This document shows positions 30,758 through 36,617 of a DNA stretch of 36,617 nucleotides, one piece after another. The notes under the pieces were generated by a model, which made no database searches, was not told the DNA's origin, and worked only from the letters and a program-made list of their open reading frames with translations. Each line of letters begins with the position of its first letter. Position 1 is the stretch's first letter. Both the position numbers and the translations under genes were made by a program. Source of the DNA: a bacterium (lineage in GTDB: Bacteria; Latescibacterota; UBA2968); contig JAPUJS010000024.1 in assembly GCA_027296045.1 (NCBI GenBank), positions 1-36,617 of the forward strand, written 5' to 3'.

Positions 30758-31438
30758 GTGGAACCTTCGGTAGAACAGGAAGTCCGAGAGATTCTGGGAC
30801 TTGCAAGGCAGTATTTGAAAGCTCAGGTCGATCTGGGTGTGGGTTGGGTGCCGCGAAAAGAGGGGGTGCAAACCGGTGTGGCAGATGACCTGGAAGCCTT
30901 TCACCAATCGACGCTCGATTGTCAGCAATGTCGGCTGGCGCAGGGCAGGCGGACGGTGGTGTTTGGAAGTGGGAATCCAAACGCCGATATTCTGTTTGTA
31001 GGAGAAGCACCCGGGGCCGAAGAAGACCGCCAGGGTGTGCCTTTTGTTGGGGCTGCCGGGCGGTTGTTGACCCGAATGATTGAATCGATAGGATTGAAGC
31101 GCGAGGCGGTCTATATTGCCAACGTGATCAAGTGTCGGCCCCCCGGCAATCGGGACCCCCAGCGCGATGAAATTGAAGCGTGTGAACCGTATTTGATTCG
31201 ACAAATTGAAATGATTCAGCCGGTTGTGATTTGTACGCTGGGCAGGTTTGCGGCCCAAACCCTATTACAGACCACCGAATCGATGGGCCGGTTGCGCGGC
31301 AAGGTTTTTTCCTACCGGGGCATCAAGCTCATTCCAACCTATCACCCTGCTGCACTGTTGCGAAACGAAGGGTGGAAACGTCCGACCTGGGAAGATTTAA
31401 AGCTGCTTCGCAGGGAATATGACGGCACTCAATTTTGA
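30758..31438 (+). CDS. Type-4/5 uracil-DNA glycosylase (Fe-S)
   Basis: CQQCRLAQGRRTVVFGSGNPNADILFVGEAPGAEEDRQGVPFVGAAGRLLTRMI, NVIKCRPPGNRDP, IPTYHPAALLRNE; start taken at GTG 30758. Confidence 0.93.
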   Translation: MEPSVEQEVREILGLARQYLKAQVDLGVGWVPRKEGVQTGVADDLEAFHQSTLDCQQCRLAQGRRTVVFGSGNPNADILFVGEAPGAEEDRQGVPFVGAAGRLLTRMIESIGLKREAVYIANVIKCRPPGNRDPQRDEIEACEPYLIRQIEMIQPVVICTLGRFAAQTLLQTTESMGRLRGKVFSYRGIKLIPTYHPAALLRNEGWKRPTWEDLKLLRREYDGTQF

Positions 31439-31440
31439 GT

Positions 31441-32829
31441 ATGGCGACCCATCAACCCACAGTTCCTATTGAACAGACTTTGGCCGAGCGCACCTTGCCC
31501 CAGGCCCGCGAAGTGGAACGCGCCGTGCTCGGGGCAATGCTCATTGATAACCTGGCTATCGCCCGGGTGGTTGAAGTGCTGGGGGATGAATCCGCATTTT
31601 ACCACACGCCGCACCGCCGGGTGTATGCTGCGATCTTGAAACTGTATGAGCGTGGAGAACCCGCCGATCAGGTGACGCTGTCGGAAGAACTGAGCCGAAG
31701 GGGGCAACTGGACGAAGTGGGCGGGCCGGTCTTTGTTGCCGAACTTGCCGGGGAGATGGCCACGGCGGCCAATGCGGAATACCACGCCAATATTGTTCTG
31801 GAAAAAGCACAGCGACGTCGGTTGATTGATGCGTCCACCCAGACCATTACGGAATCTTATGCGGAAGGCGAAGATGTCCGGGCGATTATTGACCGGGCCG
31901 AGCAGCGGGTTTTCCGCATTGCCGAGGGAGAATTGAGCCAGGGCGTCCGGTCTTTGGAGTCGGCGCTTGGGGAAACGTTCGCCCAAATTGAAAGGGTCCA
32001 CGAACGGGCGGGCGCACTTTCGGGAGTGACGACCGGCTATACCGAAATGGACGAGATTACGGCCGGTTTGCAGGCTTCGGAGATGATCATTTTAGCCTCC
32101 CGCCCCTCGATGGGCAAAACGGCGCTGACGCTCTGTATAGCCCGCAATGCGGCCGTGAAGGGCAATACGCCGGTGTTGTTTTTTTCGTTGGAAATGGGCA
32201 TTGAGCAGTTGATTCAACGGCTGCTCTGTTCCGAGGCCCGGGTGAATTCTCACCGGCTTCGGACCGGCAGGCTTTCCGAAGAAGAGTGGCAGCGGTTGGC
32301 CGCCTGGACGGGGAAGTTGTATGACGCACCCATTTATATCGACGATACGCCAGCGCTGTCGCTTTTAGAGCTACGGGCCAAATCGCGTCGGGCCAAGGTA
32401 GAACACGATATCGGCCTGATTATCATCGACTACTTGCAGTTGATGACAACCTCGAATCAATTCCAGAGCCGAGAGCAAGAAATCGCAGAGATTTCCCGAT
32501 CGGTTAAGGCGCTGGCCAAGGAACTGAAGATACCGGTGGTGGCCTGCGCCCAGCTTTCTCGGGCTGTGGAAGGCCGGGTGGACAAGCGACCTCAGCTGGC
32601 CGATTTGAGGGAATCGGGCAGTCTGGAGCAGGACGCCGACGTGGTGATGTTCCTGTTCCGGCCCGAAGTGTACGGGCTGACCGACGAGGAGGGGAATACC
32701 CAGGAAGGGGTGGCCGAGGTGATTATTGGCAAACAGCGCAACGGTCCGGTAGGCAGTGTGTTTTTGACCTTTGTGGGAGAATATCTGCGCTTTGAAGAGC
32801 CTGAGTTGTACCGGGATTTCCCTCAGTGA
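31441..32829 (+). CDS. dnaB: Replicative DNA helicase
   Basis: LPQAREVERAVLGAMLIDNLAI, ILASRPSMGKTALTLCIARNAA, FFSLEMGIEQLIQRLL, GLIIIDYLQLM, AQLSRAVEGRVDKRPQLADLRESGSLEQDADVVMFLFRPE. Confidence 0.98.
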   Translation: MATHQPTVPIEQTLAERTLPQAREVERAVLGAMLIDNLAIARVVEVLGDESAFYHTPHRRVYAAILKLYERGEPADQVTLSEELSRRGQLDEVGGPVFVAELAGEMATAANAEYHANIVLEKAQRRRLIDASTQTITESYAEGEDVRAIIDRAEQRVFRIAEGELSQGVRSLESALGETFAQIERVHERAGALSGVTTGYTEMDEITAGLQASEMIILASRPSMGKTALTLCIARNAAVKGNTPVLFFSLEMGIEQLIQRLLCSEARVNSHRLRTGRLSEEEWQRLAAWTGKLYDAPIYIDDTPALSLLELRAKSRRAKVEHDIGLIIIDYLQLMTTSNQFQSREQEIAEISRSVKALAKELKIPVVACAQLSRAVEGRVDKRPQLADLRESGSLEQDADVVMFLFRPEVYGLTDEEGNTQEGVAEVIIGKQRNGPVGSVFLTFVGEYLRFEEPELYRDFPQ

Positions 32830-32841
32830 CGGGAGGCGGTT

Positions 32842-34212
32842 ATGGCCAAAGTGCGCACCCGGTTTGTGTGTCAGGGATGTGGGGCGGAAGCTTCCAGATG
32901 GTTCGGGCGGTGTAAGGGGTGCGGGACCTGGAACACCTGTGTGGAAGAAACGGTTGCCCCTCCTCCGACAAAGCAGAAGGGGATTGGATTCGTTTCGGGG
33001 CTGGCCAAAGCCCCCGTGCCGATTACCGAGGTGGACGGGCATCTTGAAGCGCGAATCAAAACCCGGATCGGCGAGTTCGATCGCACTTTGGGAGGCGGAA
33101 TTGTGCCGGGGATGGTGGCTCTGATAGGGGGCGATCCGGGGATCGGAAAATCGACGCTGTTGTTGCAAGGGATTTGCCAGCTGGCCCTGGAAGGGTTGAA
33201 AACTTTATACGTTTCGGCCGAGGAGTCGTTGCCCCAAACCCGAATGCGGGCGCAGCGGACCGGGTCGCTTTCCGACCAGCTCTATCTGGTGTCCGAATCC
33301 AATCTGGAGCTGATTTTGACCTTTATCGAAGACCTCCAGCCGACGGCGGTTGTGATCGATTCGGTGCAGGCGATTTACCATCCCGACTTGCAAAGCGCCC
33401 CCGGAAGTGTGAGCCAGGTGCGGGAGTGTTCTGCCCGGCTGGTGTCTTTGGCCAAGCGTACGGGTGTTGCGGTATTTTTGGTGGGCCACGTGACCAAGGA
33501 AGGGACGGTTGCAGGGCCGCGTGTGGTGGAACACCTGGTGGATACCGTGCTGTATCTGGAAGGGGAACGCCACGGGGCGTTTCGGATTTTGAGGGCCGCG
33601 AAAAATCGGTTTGGGTCGACCAACGAGATTGGCATTTTTGAAATGTCCGATCGGGGGATGCTGGCTGTTGAAAATCCTTCCCAGGTTTTTTTGAGCGACA
33701 GAGATGTGGACCGGAAGGGAACGGTCACGGTCTGTTCGATGGAAGGCACCCGGCCGATTCTGGTGGAAATTCAGGCGCTGGTGGCAGCCAGCAATTTTGG
33801 ATATCCCCAACGGGTTGCGACCGGTTTCGATGCACGAAGAATGGCCATTTTGATTGCCATTCTGGAGAAACGGTCGGGGCTTCAACTGGGTTCCCAGGAT
33901 ATTTTTGTGAACGTTGCCGGTGGCCTGAAGCTCGGTGAACCTGCTGTGGATCTTGGGGTGGCTCTGTCGATGGTGTCCAGTTTTCGAGACCGCCAGGTAG
34001 GGCCTACTACTGTTGCGGTGGGAGAACTGGGATTGGGTGGGGAGGTTCGGCCCGTCAGCCAGATGGACCGGCGGATCAACGAGGCCTACAAACTGGGGTT
34101 TACCCGTTGTATTTTGGCCAAGGCCAATCTGACGGGGTTGAAGGTGCCGGACGGAATGGAAGCCATTGGGGTTGCTGAAATTGATGCAGCCCAGGAAGTT
34201 GCATTTACCTAG
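32842..34212 (+). CDS. radA: DNA repair protein RadA
   Basis: C4 motif CQGCGAEASRWFGRCKGCGTWNT; GGDPGIGKSTLLLQ; RAAKNRFGSTNEIGIFEM; C-terminal Lon-like domain. Confidence 0.98.
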   Translation: MAKVRTRFVCQGCGAEASRWFGRCKGCGTWNTCVEETVAPPPTKQKGIGFVSGLAKAPVPITEVDGHLEARIKTRIGEFDRTLGGGIVPGMVALIGGDPGIGKSTLLLQGICQLALEGLKTLYVSAEESLPQTRMRAQRTGSLSDQLYLVSESNLELILTFIEDLQPTAVVIDSVQAIYHPDLQSAPGSVSQVRECSARLVSLAKRTGVAVFLVGHVTKEGTVAGPRVVEHLVDTVLYLEGERHGAFRILRAAKNRFGSTNEIGIFEMSDRGMLAVENPSQVFLSDRDVDRKGTVTVCSMEGTRPILVEIQALVAASNFGYPQRVATGFDARRMAILIAILEKRSGLQLGSQDIFVNVAGGLKLGEPAVDLGVALSMVSSFRDRQVGPTTVAVGELGLGGEVRPVSQMDRRINEAYKLGFTRCILAKANLTGLKVPDGMEAIGVAEIDAAQEVAFT

Positions 34213-34231
34213 AAGGCGAGCGAGGGTATTT

Positions 34232-34888
34232 ATGATACAGAGCAGATCTGCGGTACGGATTTCAAAGCTTTTGTCCTTGATGTTGCGCCACCGACCGGAT
34301 GAATTCGGCCTGGAGGTCGATGCGTTTGGGTTTGCCGATGTGGAGGCTGTTTTGTCGGCACTCCAGGCAAAGGACGGGGAGGTGACGATGGAGGATGTAG
34401 AGGCTGTGGTGTACGACGGTGAAAAGCAACGATTTGAGATCAAAGACGGTCGCATCCGTGCCCGATATGGTCATAGCTTTCCCATTGACCTGGGCGTAGA
34501 CCCTGCCGAACCGCCTGAATTTCTTTATAAAGGGGTTTCGCCAAAGGAAGTGGAGGGCATCTTGTCCGAAGGGCTGACGCCGATAGATCGACAATTTGTG
34601 CACCTGTCGTTTGAATCCGAAGTGGCCGCTCAAATAGGGGGTGGACGCGGACGACCGAGTGCGGTGATTCGGGTGGCGGCACAGGAAGCCCACGAGGCGG
34701 GTGTTGCATTTTTCGATTGCGGACCAACGGTGTTGACCGAGCAGGTGCCGACTGAATTTTTGACCCTCGAACAGAGACCGGAACGGGAAGCGTATCCGCC
34801 CGCCCCTACTCCCCCCCCGGCGAATGAAGCAGTTGCTTCCCAAGAAGTGACCTATGGACGGAGGCGGAGGTTTTCTTCGAGGCGATAA
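34232..34888 (+). CDS. kptA: RNA 2'-phosphotransferase (KptA/Tpt1 family)
   Basis: ISKLLSLMLRHRPDEFGLEVDAFGFADVEAVL, RIRARYGHSF, EFLYKGVSPKEVEGILSEGLTPIDRQFVHLS; extra Pro-rich and Arg-rich C-terminal tail. Confidence 0.92.
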   Translation: MIQSRSAVRISKLLSLMLRHRPDEFGLEVDAFGFADVEAVLSALQAKDGEVTMEDVEAVVYDGEKQRFEIKDGRIRARYGHSFPIDLGVDPAEPPEFLYKGVSPKEVEGILSEGLTPIDRQFVHLSFESEVAAQIGGGRGRPSAVIRVAAQEAHEAGVAFFDCGPTVLTEQVPTEFLTLEQRPEREAYPPAPTPPPANEAVASQEVTYGRRRRFSSRR

Positions 34889-34993
34889 TATCGGGATGGT
34901 AGGATACCGGCGTTTTCAAGATCGTTGGGTAGACTTTGACTCGGATCCTCCTGTGGTCTTTTCTCCCCAGATATTTTTAAGAGGCCAGCGTGT

Positions 34994-35911
34994 ATGGCGA
35001 AGTCGCGAAAAAAACCATCTCCCATTTCTGCAGTGCTGGAAGTGGCAGCCGATCTTGCGCAACAGCTGCAGGCAGACAAAATTCTGGTGATGGCCGAAGT
35101 GGGCGTGCGTCGCGAGGCAATTTTGGCATTGCATCAGGTGTGTTCGACGCTGGTTGTGACGCAGAACAAACGGTTTTTAGTGGGTATCGAAGACTTCGGG
35201 ATTGGACGCCTGACCTTCGATTTTGACGTCGACGGTATGGCCAATGTCGAATGGGTCCGGCAGGCGATTATTCTGGGGATGGAGGGCGGCTTCATCCAGC
35301 GGGGCAGCCTGGTGATCTGTGTAACACACCTCTTGGAATCCCGCGGGGTGGACTCGGTGGTGGCGGTGGACACAAGTCGGGGGTTTGAAGGATTTTATCC
35401 AGACAGTGTGGTGGCCCTGGCAGGGGATTATCCCATCGAGGTGGTCAAGGCCGCTCTGGATCTGGCGGTGGATATCGGTCAGGAAGGTCGCGAAGGCGAT
35501 CCGATCGGGGCGCTTTTTGTGATTGGAGATTCGGAACGGGTGTTGACGCATTCCAGGACAATGACATTTGACCCGTTTCGGGGCTATTCGGAACGGGAAA
35601 AAAATATCTGCAATGCCGATAACCGGGAGGGCATCAAAGAGGTTGCCCGAATGGACGGCGCTTTTGTCATTCAAGATCACGGCGTGGTTGTTTCGGGGAG
35701 CCGATATATTTCGGCAGACGTACAGGGATTGGTGCTGCCCAAAGGACTGGGGGCGCGACATGTGGCGGCGGCTTCGATTACAAAGCATACCCGGGCCATC
35801 GCGATTGCGGTTTCTCAGTCTACGGGTGTGGTTCGGGCCTTTAAGGAGGGCAAAATTGTGTTGCGTGTCGATCCGTCTAGACGCAGCATTAGCGGAAATT
35901 GGAGGCGATAG
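34994..35911 (+). CDS. DacZ-like diadenylate cyclase (N-terminal pyruvate-kinase-C-like region + C-terminal DAC domain)
   Basis: MDGAFVIQDHGVVVSGSRYISADVQGLVLPKGLGARHVAAASITKHTRAIAIAVSQSTGVVRAFKEGKIVLRV resembles DAC domains (DGA, RHx motifs), placed at the C-terminus after an alpha/beta domain. Confidence 0.82.
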   Translation: MAKSRKKPSPISAVLEVAADLAQQLQADKILVMAEVGVRREAILALHQVCSTLVVTQNKRFLVGIEDFGIGRLTFDFDVDGMANVEWVRQAIILGMEGGFIQRGSLVICVTHLLESRGVDSVVAVDTSRGFEGFYPDSVVALAGDYPIEVVKAALDLAVDIGQEGREGDPIGALFVIGDSERVLTHSRTMTFDPFRGYSEREKNICNADNREGIKEVARMDGAFVIQDHGVVVSGSRYISADVQGLVLPKGLGARHVAAASITKHTRAIAIAVSQSTGVVRAFKEGKIVLRVDPSRRSISGNWRR

Positions 35912-35920
35912 GAAGGGATT

Positions 35921-36106
35921 ATGGAAGCCATTGTGATTGGGGCAGGGCAGGCAGGGACCCACATTGCTCAGGTGCTCTCGATGGACCACCACAATGTGAC
36001 GCTGATCGATACCGATCGGGAACGGATTTTGCGGGCCGAAGAGACCCTGGATGTGCGCACGATTTGCGACCACGGGGCCAGTGAAACGTATTCCTACATG
36101 AGTTGA
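35921..36106 (+). pseudogene. trkA: TrkA-type NAD-binding (RCK N) domain, truncated after about 54 homologous residues
   Basis: MEAIVIGAGQAGTHIAQVLSMDHHNVTLIDTDRERILRAEETLDVRTICDHGAS then unrelated ETYSYMS-stop. Confidence 0.72.
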
Positions 36107-36114
36107 ATTCACCA

Positions 36115-36150
36115 CAGACTAATTTTCCCCGCGTAGGGAAAATTAGTCTG
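36115..36150. repeat. Perfect 15-bp inverted repeat just past the trkA truncation
   Basis: CAGACTAATTTTCCC-cgcgta-GGGAAAATTAGTCTG. Confidence 0.85.
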
Positions 36151-36201
36151 TATTTAATAAATGTTTGTAAACATTATAAATATGGTTCCTCGCTGTTTGG
36201 T

Positions 36202-36617
36202 GTGGGTGACATTATAGACTGGCCGGAATTTCTTTCGAAACTAAGCGCCGCTGGGAACGCGGCCCAACCGAGCCCTGGTAAGAGGATATGGGAACTGCTT
36301 CCTCAGGACATCCAGTCTACGGTCGAGGGCTCAGTGGGTAGTAGCAGCCTTGAAGGGGAATATAAATTCAATATTATCAAAGCATTGAACGAAAATATCT
36401 TGGACAGTTCCGATTTCTATCAAGAGGGATATTTTTCAAGTATTGCGCTTCCTGAGGCAGTCCAGAGGTTGTTGAGTAACCAGGCAAACCTGTCATCCAG
36501 CGATGCCCAAAGACTCAACCGCCTTTTGATAGAATCAGCTTACCCACACGAAATAGAGAAGAGCCAATTAAAAGATACTAAAAATCACAGATTATTGGCC
36601 AACTCTTTGAAGAGCAT
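36202..36617 (+). CDS. Unidentified reading frame open to the right edge (partial)
   Basis: Frame from GTG 36202: VGDIIDWPEFLSKLSAAGNAAQPSPGKRIWELLPQDIQSTVEGSVGSSSLEGEYKFNIIKALNENILDSSDFYQEGYFSSIALPEAVQRLLSNQANLSSSDAQRLNRLLIESAYPHEIEKSQLKDTKNHRLLANSLKS; also open upstream to TTG 36103. Missing from the ORF track because no stop lies in the window. Confidence 0.5.
   Translation, partial: MGDIIDWPEFLSKLSAAGNAAQPSPGKRIWELLPQDIQSTVEGSVGSSSLEGEYKFNIIKALNENILDSSDFYQEGYFSSIALPEAVQRLLSNQANLSSSDAQRLNRLLIESAYPHEIEKSQLKDTKNHRLLANSLKS

Follow-up and report, generated by a model that had tools for sequence, protein, structure and literature searches.

The locus described here is probably the product of two histories: a c-di-AMP/K+ module appears to have been inserted behind an old dnaB-radA-kptA operon, and the KptA encoded there appears to represent a divergent subfamily with a non-standard action. 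The window, by which we mean the whole stretch of 36,617 nucleotides analysed, is one of the 653 contigs of a fragmented genome from the phylum Latescibacterota, and the features considered are listed in the table.

Table. Features at the dnaB-radA-kptA-dacZ locus, in positions of the window
Feature	Position	Strand	Evidence
dnaB, replicative helicase	31435..32829	+	TIGR00665 (DnaB) 529 bits, above cut-off
radA (Sms), DNA repair ATPase	32842..34212	+	TIGR00416 606 bits (cut-off 403)
kptA-like gene, NAD-pocket-altered subfamily	34232 (ATG)..34888	+	PF01885 E 6e-32, 112 bits (cut-off 26); alignments; AF2 model
dacZ, DacZ/CdaZ-type diadenylate cyclase	34994..35911	+	PF02457 E 6e-20; motifs
trkA 5' part (RCK/TrkA_N start, 54 homologous codons)	35921..36082	+	PF02254 E 1.5e-8
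Contig end, foreign or rearranged	36083..36617	.	palindromic repeat 36116-36149

An earlier interpretation of this DNA, made from its letters alone (the sequence-only reading), had noted co-directional and closely spaced genes for RadA, a KptA/Tpt1 enzyme, a DAC-domain protein and TrkA, and profile matches confirm that all four genes are real, trkA being represented by its start. They follow one another at intervals of 19 bp (radA-kptA), 105 bp (kptA-dacZ) and 9 bp (dacZ-trkA), with dnaB ending 12 bp ahead of radA, and sigma-70-like promoters between radA, kptA, dacZ and trkA number 0, with 1.5 expected by chance.

The conservation of this gene order was followed by profile searches of 64 Latescibacterota genomes, 47 of which make up the class in question, and 21 of which, distributed over eight genera in the families f1 and f2, make up the order. 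The kptA gene is encoded in 46 of the 47 class genomes but was not found in the 17 genomes of the phylum outside the class. In the order, kptA and dacZ are adjacent in every genome (21/21, covering all 8 genera and both families), with the gene for the DacZ-type cyclase always located about 1 kb past kptA, and the arrangement dnaB-(radA)-kptA-dacZ is likewise present in all 21, so it cannot be ascribed to chance. The supposition of a conserved neighborhood, which the sequence-only reading would have abandoned had most relatives lacked kptA at this place, thus holds within the order, and more strongly than that reading had stated. Outside the order, no DacZ-type cyclases were found among the 64 genomes, the weak matches there spanning the DAC domain only.

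The upstream part of the cluster is more widely shared. The position of dnaB, the conserved upstream neighbor, is identical in the f1, f2, and f3 loci, and in 15 of the 21 order genomes radA separates dnaB from kptA. No radA was found anywhere in the other six genomes (G001, G002, G015-G018; loci L032, L033, L039-L042; completeness 91-98%), in which dnaB, kptA and dacZ are linked directly. RadA/Sms is nearly universal in bacteria. The single genome of family f3 encodes coaBC-udg4-dnaB-radA-kptA without dacZ, its sole DAC gene being located on another contig, and in family f4 the kptA gene comes after purE, as part of a murF-ftsW-murC-ftsQ-ftsA-ftsZ-purE cluster (loci L046-L051; ftsQ is named by position only). 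The radA-kptA order therefore extends beyond the genomes with DacZ, and kptA can persist where neither radA nor dacZ is close by. These distributions indicate that kptA goes back to the ancestor of the class, being either older than dacZ or independent of it, and the one f3 genome suggests that the radA-kptA pair preceded dacZ. The invariable linkage of kptA and dacZ may itself represent one inherited event, as the genes upstream are equally conserved, and linkage alone does not prove a joint function. The end of a cluster of murF, ftsW, murC, ftsA and ftsZ, next to purE, is in its own right an unusual place for a gene of the RNA-repair type.

As to the cyclase, the window protein scores 173 bits against the NCBIfam DacZ model, below the model's own cut-off of 430, which is haloarchaeal, and 25-33 bits against the CdaA, DisA, and CdaM models (CdaA 25, DisA 26). 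In the DisA model, composed of the DAC, linker, and HhH DNA-binding domains and carrying a cut-off of 201 bits, the DAC part alone is aligned. The DacZ motifs DGA (residues 221-223) and RH (255-256) are invariant among the homologues, and an N-terminal domain is recognized as PK_C in 11 of 18 and as DacZ_P in 17 of 18 of them, the DacZ_P match of the window protein itself being weak (E 8e-5, under the cut-off). A domain of the PK_C/DacZ_P type defines the DacZ/CdaZ class, of which bacterial members are already known (PMC6741144). The proteins described here thus share the DAC domain with its two motifs and the type of N-terminal domain with the DacZ/CdaZ of Euryarchaeota and some bacteria (PMC6741144), but differ in their bacterial host, in the low score, in their linkage to trkA-trkH and an RCK channel, and in being the sole cyclase found in f1. 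Indeed, dacZ is the only c-di-AMP synthase gene found in 16 of the 21 order genomes (all 15 of f1, plus G020), so that an archaeal-type cyclase is the only such synthase found in a bacterial family, while five f2 genomes possess a second, CdaA-like DAC gene besides dacZ (one of these CdaA-like genes was examined). In genus g6 (L099, 1755-2897), the protein found besides DacZ is a CdaA of 380 amino acids whose long C-terminal extension may be YbbR/CdaR-like. A gene for a PgpH-type phosphodiesterase (PF07698) is present in each of the 11 order genomes checked. No DacZ homologues were found in viral contigs, and our literature search, of incomplete coverage, returned no paper naming Latescibacterota together with c-di-AMP. 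An AF2 model of DacZ (pLDDT 33, built on a 2-row alignment) was discarded, and so was a reading of the locus as a defense system, as in PADLOC KptA has no match and DacZ matches the generic diadenylate cyclase model only.

Genes for potassium transport are found 3' of dacZ in several genera, and here the suggestion of a c-di-AMP/K+ locus is supported. These are trkA-trkH in genomes G004 and G020, a damaged trkA-trkH in G002, and a gene for an RCK K+ channel in G001, G002, and G020. A full-length TrkA of a relative (L035) has two TrkA_N and two TrkA_C (RCK) domains. TrkH was found in two of the 22 genomes searched, beside dacZ in both, and its absence from most genomes of the order means that this K+ effector is not universal. 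Binding of c-di-AMP by TrkA has been established in Streptococcus mitis (PMC12453120), and by analogy TrkA or the RCK channel is the likely c-di-AMP receptor here. Like the S. mitis protein, TrkA of this order has RCK domains and would be expected to bind c-di-AMP, but here its gene is linked to that of the cyclase, and the window copy is truncated. Where trkA-trkH is present, dacZ thus adjoins its likely potassium target, making the connection between c-di-AMP and K+ directly testable outside of the Gram-positives. A DUF1854 gene is also found past dacZ in several genera, repeatedly located (L044, 3507-3980; L041, 8794-9393) between dacZ or trkH and a gene for a K+ channel or a putative membrane glycosyltransferase; its NCBI model, matched below cut-off, is that of a protein associated with cyanophycin metabolism.

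The KptA proteins of the class were aligned (46 sequences) with 28 from outside (E. coli, plasmids, phages, viral contigs, and two solved structures), the outside set coming mostly from mobile elements. The Arg-His-Arg-Arg tetrad (R18, H19, R68, and R121 of CthTpt1; R19, H20, R67, and R120 of the window protein) is kept in all 46 and all 28. In contrast, His101 of the NAD+-binding HGT motif, present in 28/28 outside sequences, is found in none of the class (0/46), its place being taken by Lys in f1 and f2, by Gln in f3, where Gln-Glu-Val replaces the motif, and by Met or Leu in f4; the window protein has K100-G101-V102. Thr103 remains in 11 of the 46 and is lost in all 21 proteins of f1 and f2. 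Ile111, which stacks on the adenine, is variable, Arg140 is missing from most class members and from most of f1, and Arg139 is lost in f4; an Arg at the 139 position may persist in most f1 proteins, in a stretch that aligns with gaps. The losses within the class fall mainly on the NAD lobe: of the positions at least 90% conserved outside, 7 of 12 are gone there, versus one of 15 in the RNA lobe (p 0.008 by Fisher's test, uncorrected for shared ancestry). An alignment slip as the cause of the HGT loss can be dismissed, since the LY-x-G anchors on either side and the tetrad align free of gaps. In the Runella enzyme (RslTpt1), an H99A-T101A double mutant retains 4% product formation and a mutant in the equivalent of Arg139 loses activity at low NAD+ (PMC6333775). 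Our literature search, again of incomplete coverage, returned no description of a KptA altered in the NAD pocket.

The KptA fold is retained. The AF2 model of the window KptA (pLDDT 83, core above 90, tail disordered) superimposes on the solved CthTpt1 (6E3A) and TkoKptA (9LD6) with TM-scores, normalized by target, of 0.90-0.93. Compared with these and with E. coli KptA, the class proteins share the whole fold, the winged-helix RNA lobe, and the tetrad, and differ in the replaced HGT, in the unconserved Ile111 and Arg139/Arg140 phosphate cage, and in an added basic C-terminal tail with a (Y/F)GR motif, present in 46/46 class members (approximately residues 203-218 in the window) and in 0/28 outside.

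Omega values in the altered lobe, at 0.07 in genus g4, 0.18 in g6, and 0.10 in g13, indicate purifying selection, and decay of KptA into a pseudogene was rejected, omega being 0.07-0.22 in the core lobes. In the KptA tree all 46 class members are on one side (support 100/98), forming one group against the outside set, and thus a separate acquisition in f4 was also rejected. Class KptA is most likely a vertically inherited, class-wide divergent subfamily. The retention of KptA under selection throughout an entire class, despite the changed NAD+ site, points to a role not needing the canonical reaction, with specific residues available for testing, and bears on the question, regarded as open, of why KptA persists in bacteria that have no tRNA-splicing ligase (PMC6333775, PMC9095486).

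In the scenario we favor, the housekeeping cluster coaBC-udg4-dnaB-radA-kptA would have existed first, and dacZ and the K+ genes (trkA-trkH, RCK K+ channel) would have been placed behind it in the ancestor of the order. DacZ, judging by its family and motifs, would convert ATP into c-di-AMP, a PgpH-type phosphodiesterase encoded elsewhere would remove it, and TrkA or the RCK part of the channel would likely serve as the receptor through which c-di-AMP closes K+ uptake, as in other bacteria. KptA would have come to this position, and probably to a shared transcript, by inheritance, its tie to DacZ being positional. Its tetrad would still grip RNA phosphorylated at the 2' or 3' position, with the NAD+ site remodeled and the basic tail presumably adding affinity for nucleic acids, and KptA would most likely bind phosphorylated RNA, or process it by a changed chemistry, rather than carry out the standard NAD+-dependent removal of 2'-phosphates.

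Alternatively, KptA may be an ordinary active enzyme, in which compensating residues, such as K100 directed to the phosphates, bind NAD+, and which clears ThpR-generated RNA ends of their 2'-phosphates. We consider this unlikely, although the kept fold and the invariant tetrad speak for it. Lys100 could stand in functionally for His101, as in Pierisin an Arg at this position contacts the NAD phosphates (PMC6333775), and a gene for ThpR, a 2',3'-cyclic phosphodiesterase, scores above cut-off in 10 of the 14 genomes checked, the window's own included. However, the residue at the His position is not basic in f3 and f4, and the loss of Thr103 throughout f1 and f2, the variation at Ile111, and the loss of Arg140 from most of f1 also speak against it. 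Moreover, no ThpR match was found in the three genomes of genus g4 that were checked (G003, G005, G008), all with KptA, removing one possible source of RNA ends with 2'-phosphates. Improbable, in our estimate, is a further possibility, that class KptA is a new, NAD+-independent subfamily on the KptA fold, binding RNA phosphates or acting as an enzyme with another co-substrate, and that in this order it is co-produced with DacZ and takes part in c-di-AMP/K+ control, for instance by adapting RNA or ribosomes when ionic conditions become stressful.

The sequence-only reading had KptA possibly acting on nucleic-acid ends or NAD+, rather than on tRNA splicing junctions, and tied to the RadA/c-di-AMP module; in the form weighed here, KptA would use NAD+ on nucleic-acid ends and be coupled to RadA and c-di-AMP in a response to DNA damage. 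The close spacing of the genes (the 19 and 105 bp gaps), the fact that kptA and dacZ are never apart in the order, and the existence of solved complexes of TkoKptA with 5'-p-ADPR-DNA (from PDB titles) agree with such a role, but we find it very improbable. Six of the 21 genomes have lost radA and kept kptA-dacZ, f3 and f4 have kptA without dacZ nearby, the latter in the ftsZ-purE cluster, and the consumption of NAD+ is doubtful because the NAD+-site residues are replaced in all 46 class KptAs. Nor does the precedent of the Bacillus subtilis disA-radA operon (PMC10804225) carry over: a cyclase gene is near radA in both cases, but here dnaB and kptA are also present, radA is dispensable to the arrangement, and the cyclase is of another class, without similarity to DisA beyond the DAC domain. 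What remains of that reading is thus its c-di-AMP/K+ half, supported by the sole cyclase of f1, the PgpH-like gene, and the K+ genes 3' of dacZ, and not the half concerning KptA, its NAD+, and its link to RadA. Least credible of all is the notion of KptA as an RNA-binding protein responsive to c-di-AMP or another nucleotide, its pocket sensing an adenine nucleotide other than NAD+. This would explain the constant pairing with dacZ wherever dacZ exists, and would agree with a pocket remodeled yet constrained, but the same remodeling is found in f3 and f4, which lack DacZ, and hence did not arise for DacZ.

The trkA of the window is truncated. Homology stops after residue 54, and the frame continues in unrelated sequence to a stop at 36106; the 535 bases past the break have a GC content of about 46%, versus 57%. 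The piece is 65% identical to the full TrkA of genome G004, and no other piece of TrkA was found in the window's own assembly. The truncation represents either a rearrangement or an assembly join, and is present either in the organism or in the assembly alone. The palindrome located in this terminal part recurs in more than 10 other contigs of the same genome and represents either a dispersed repeat or an assembly join.
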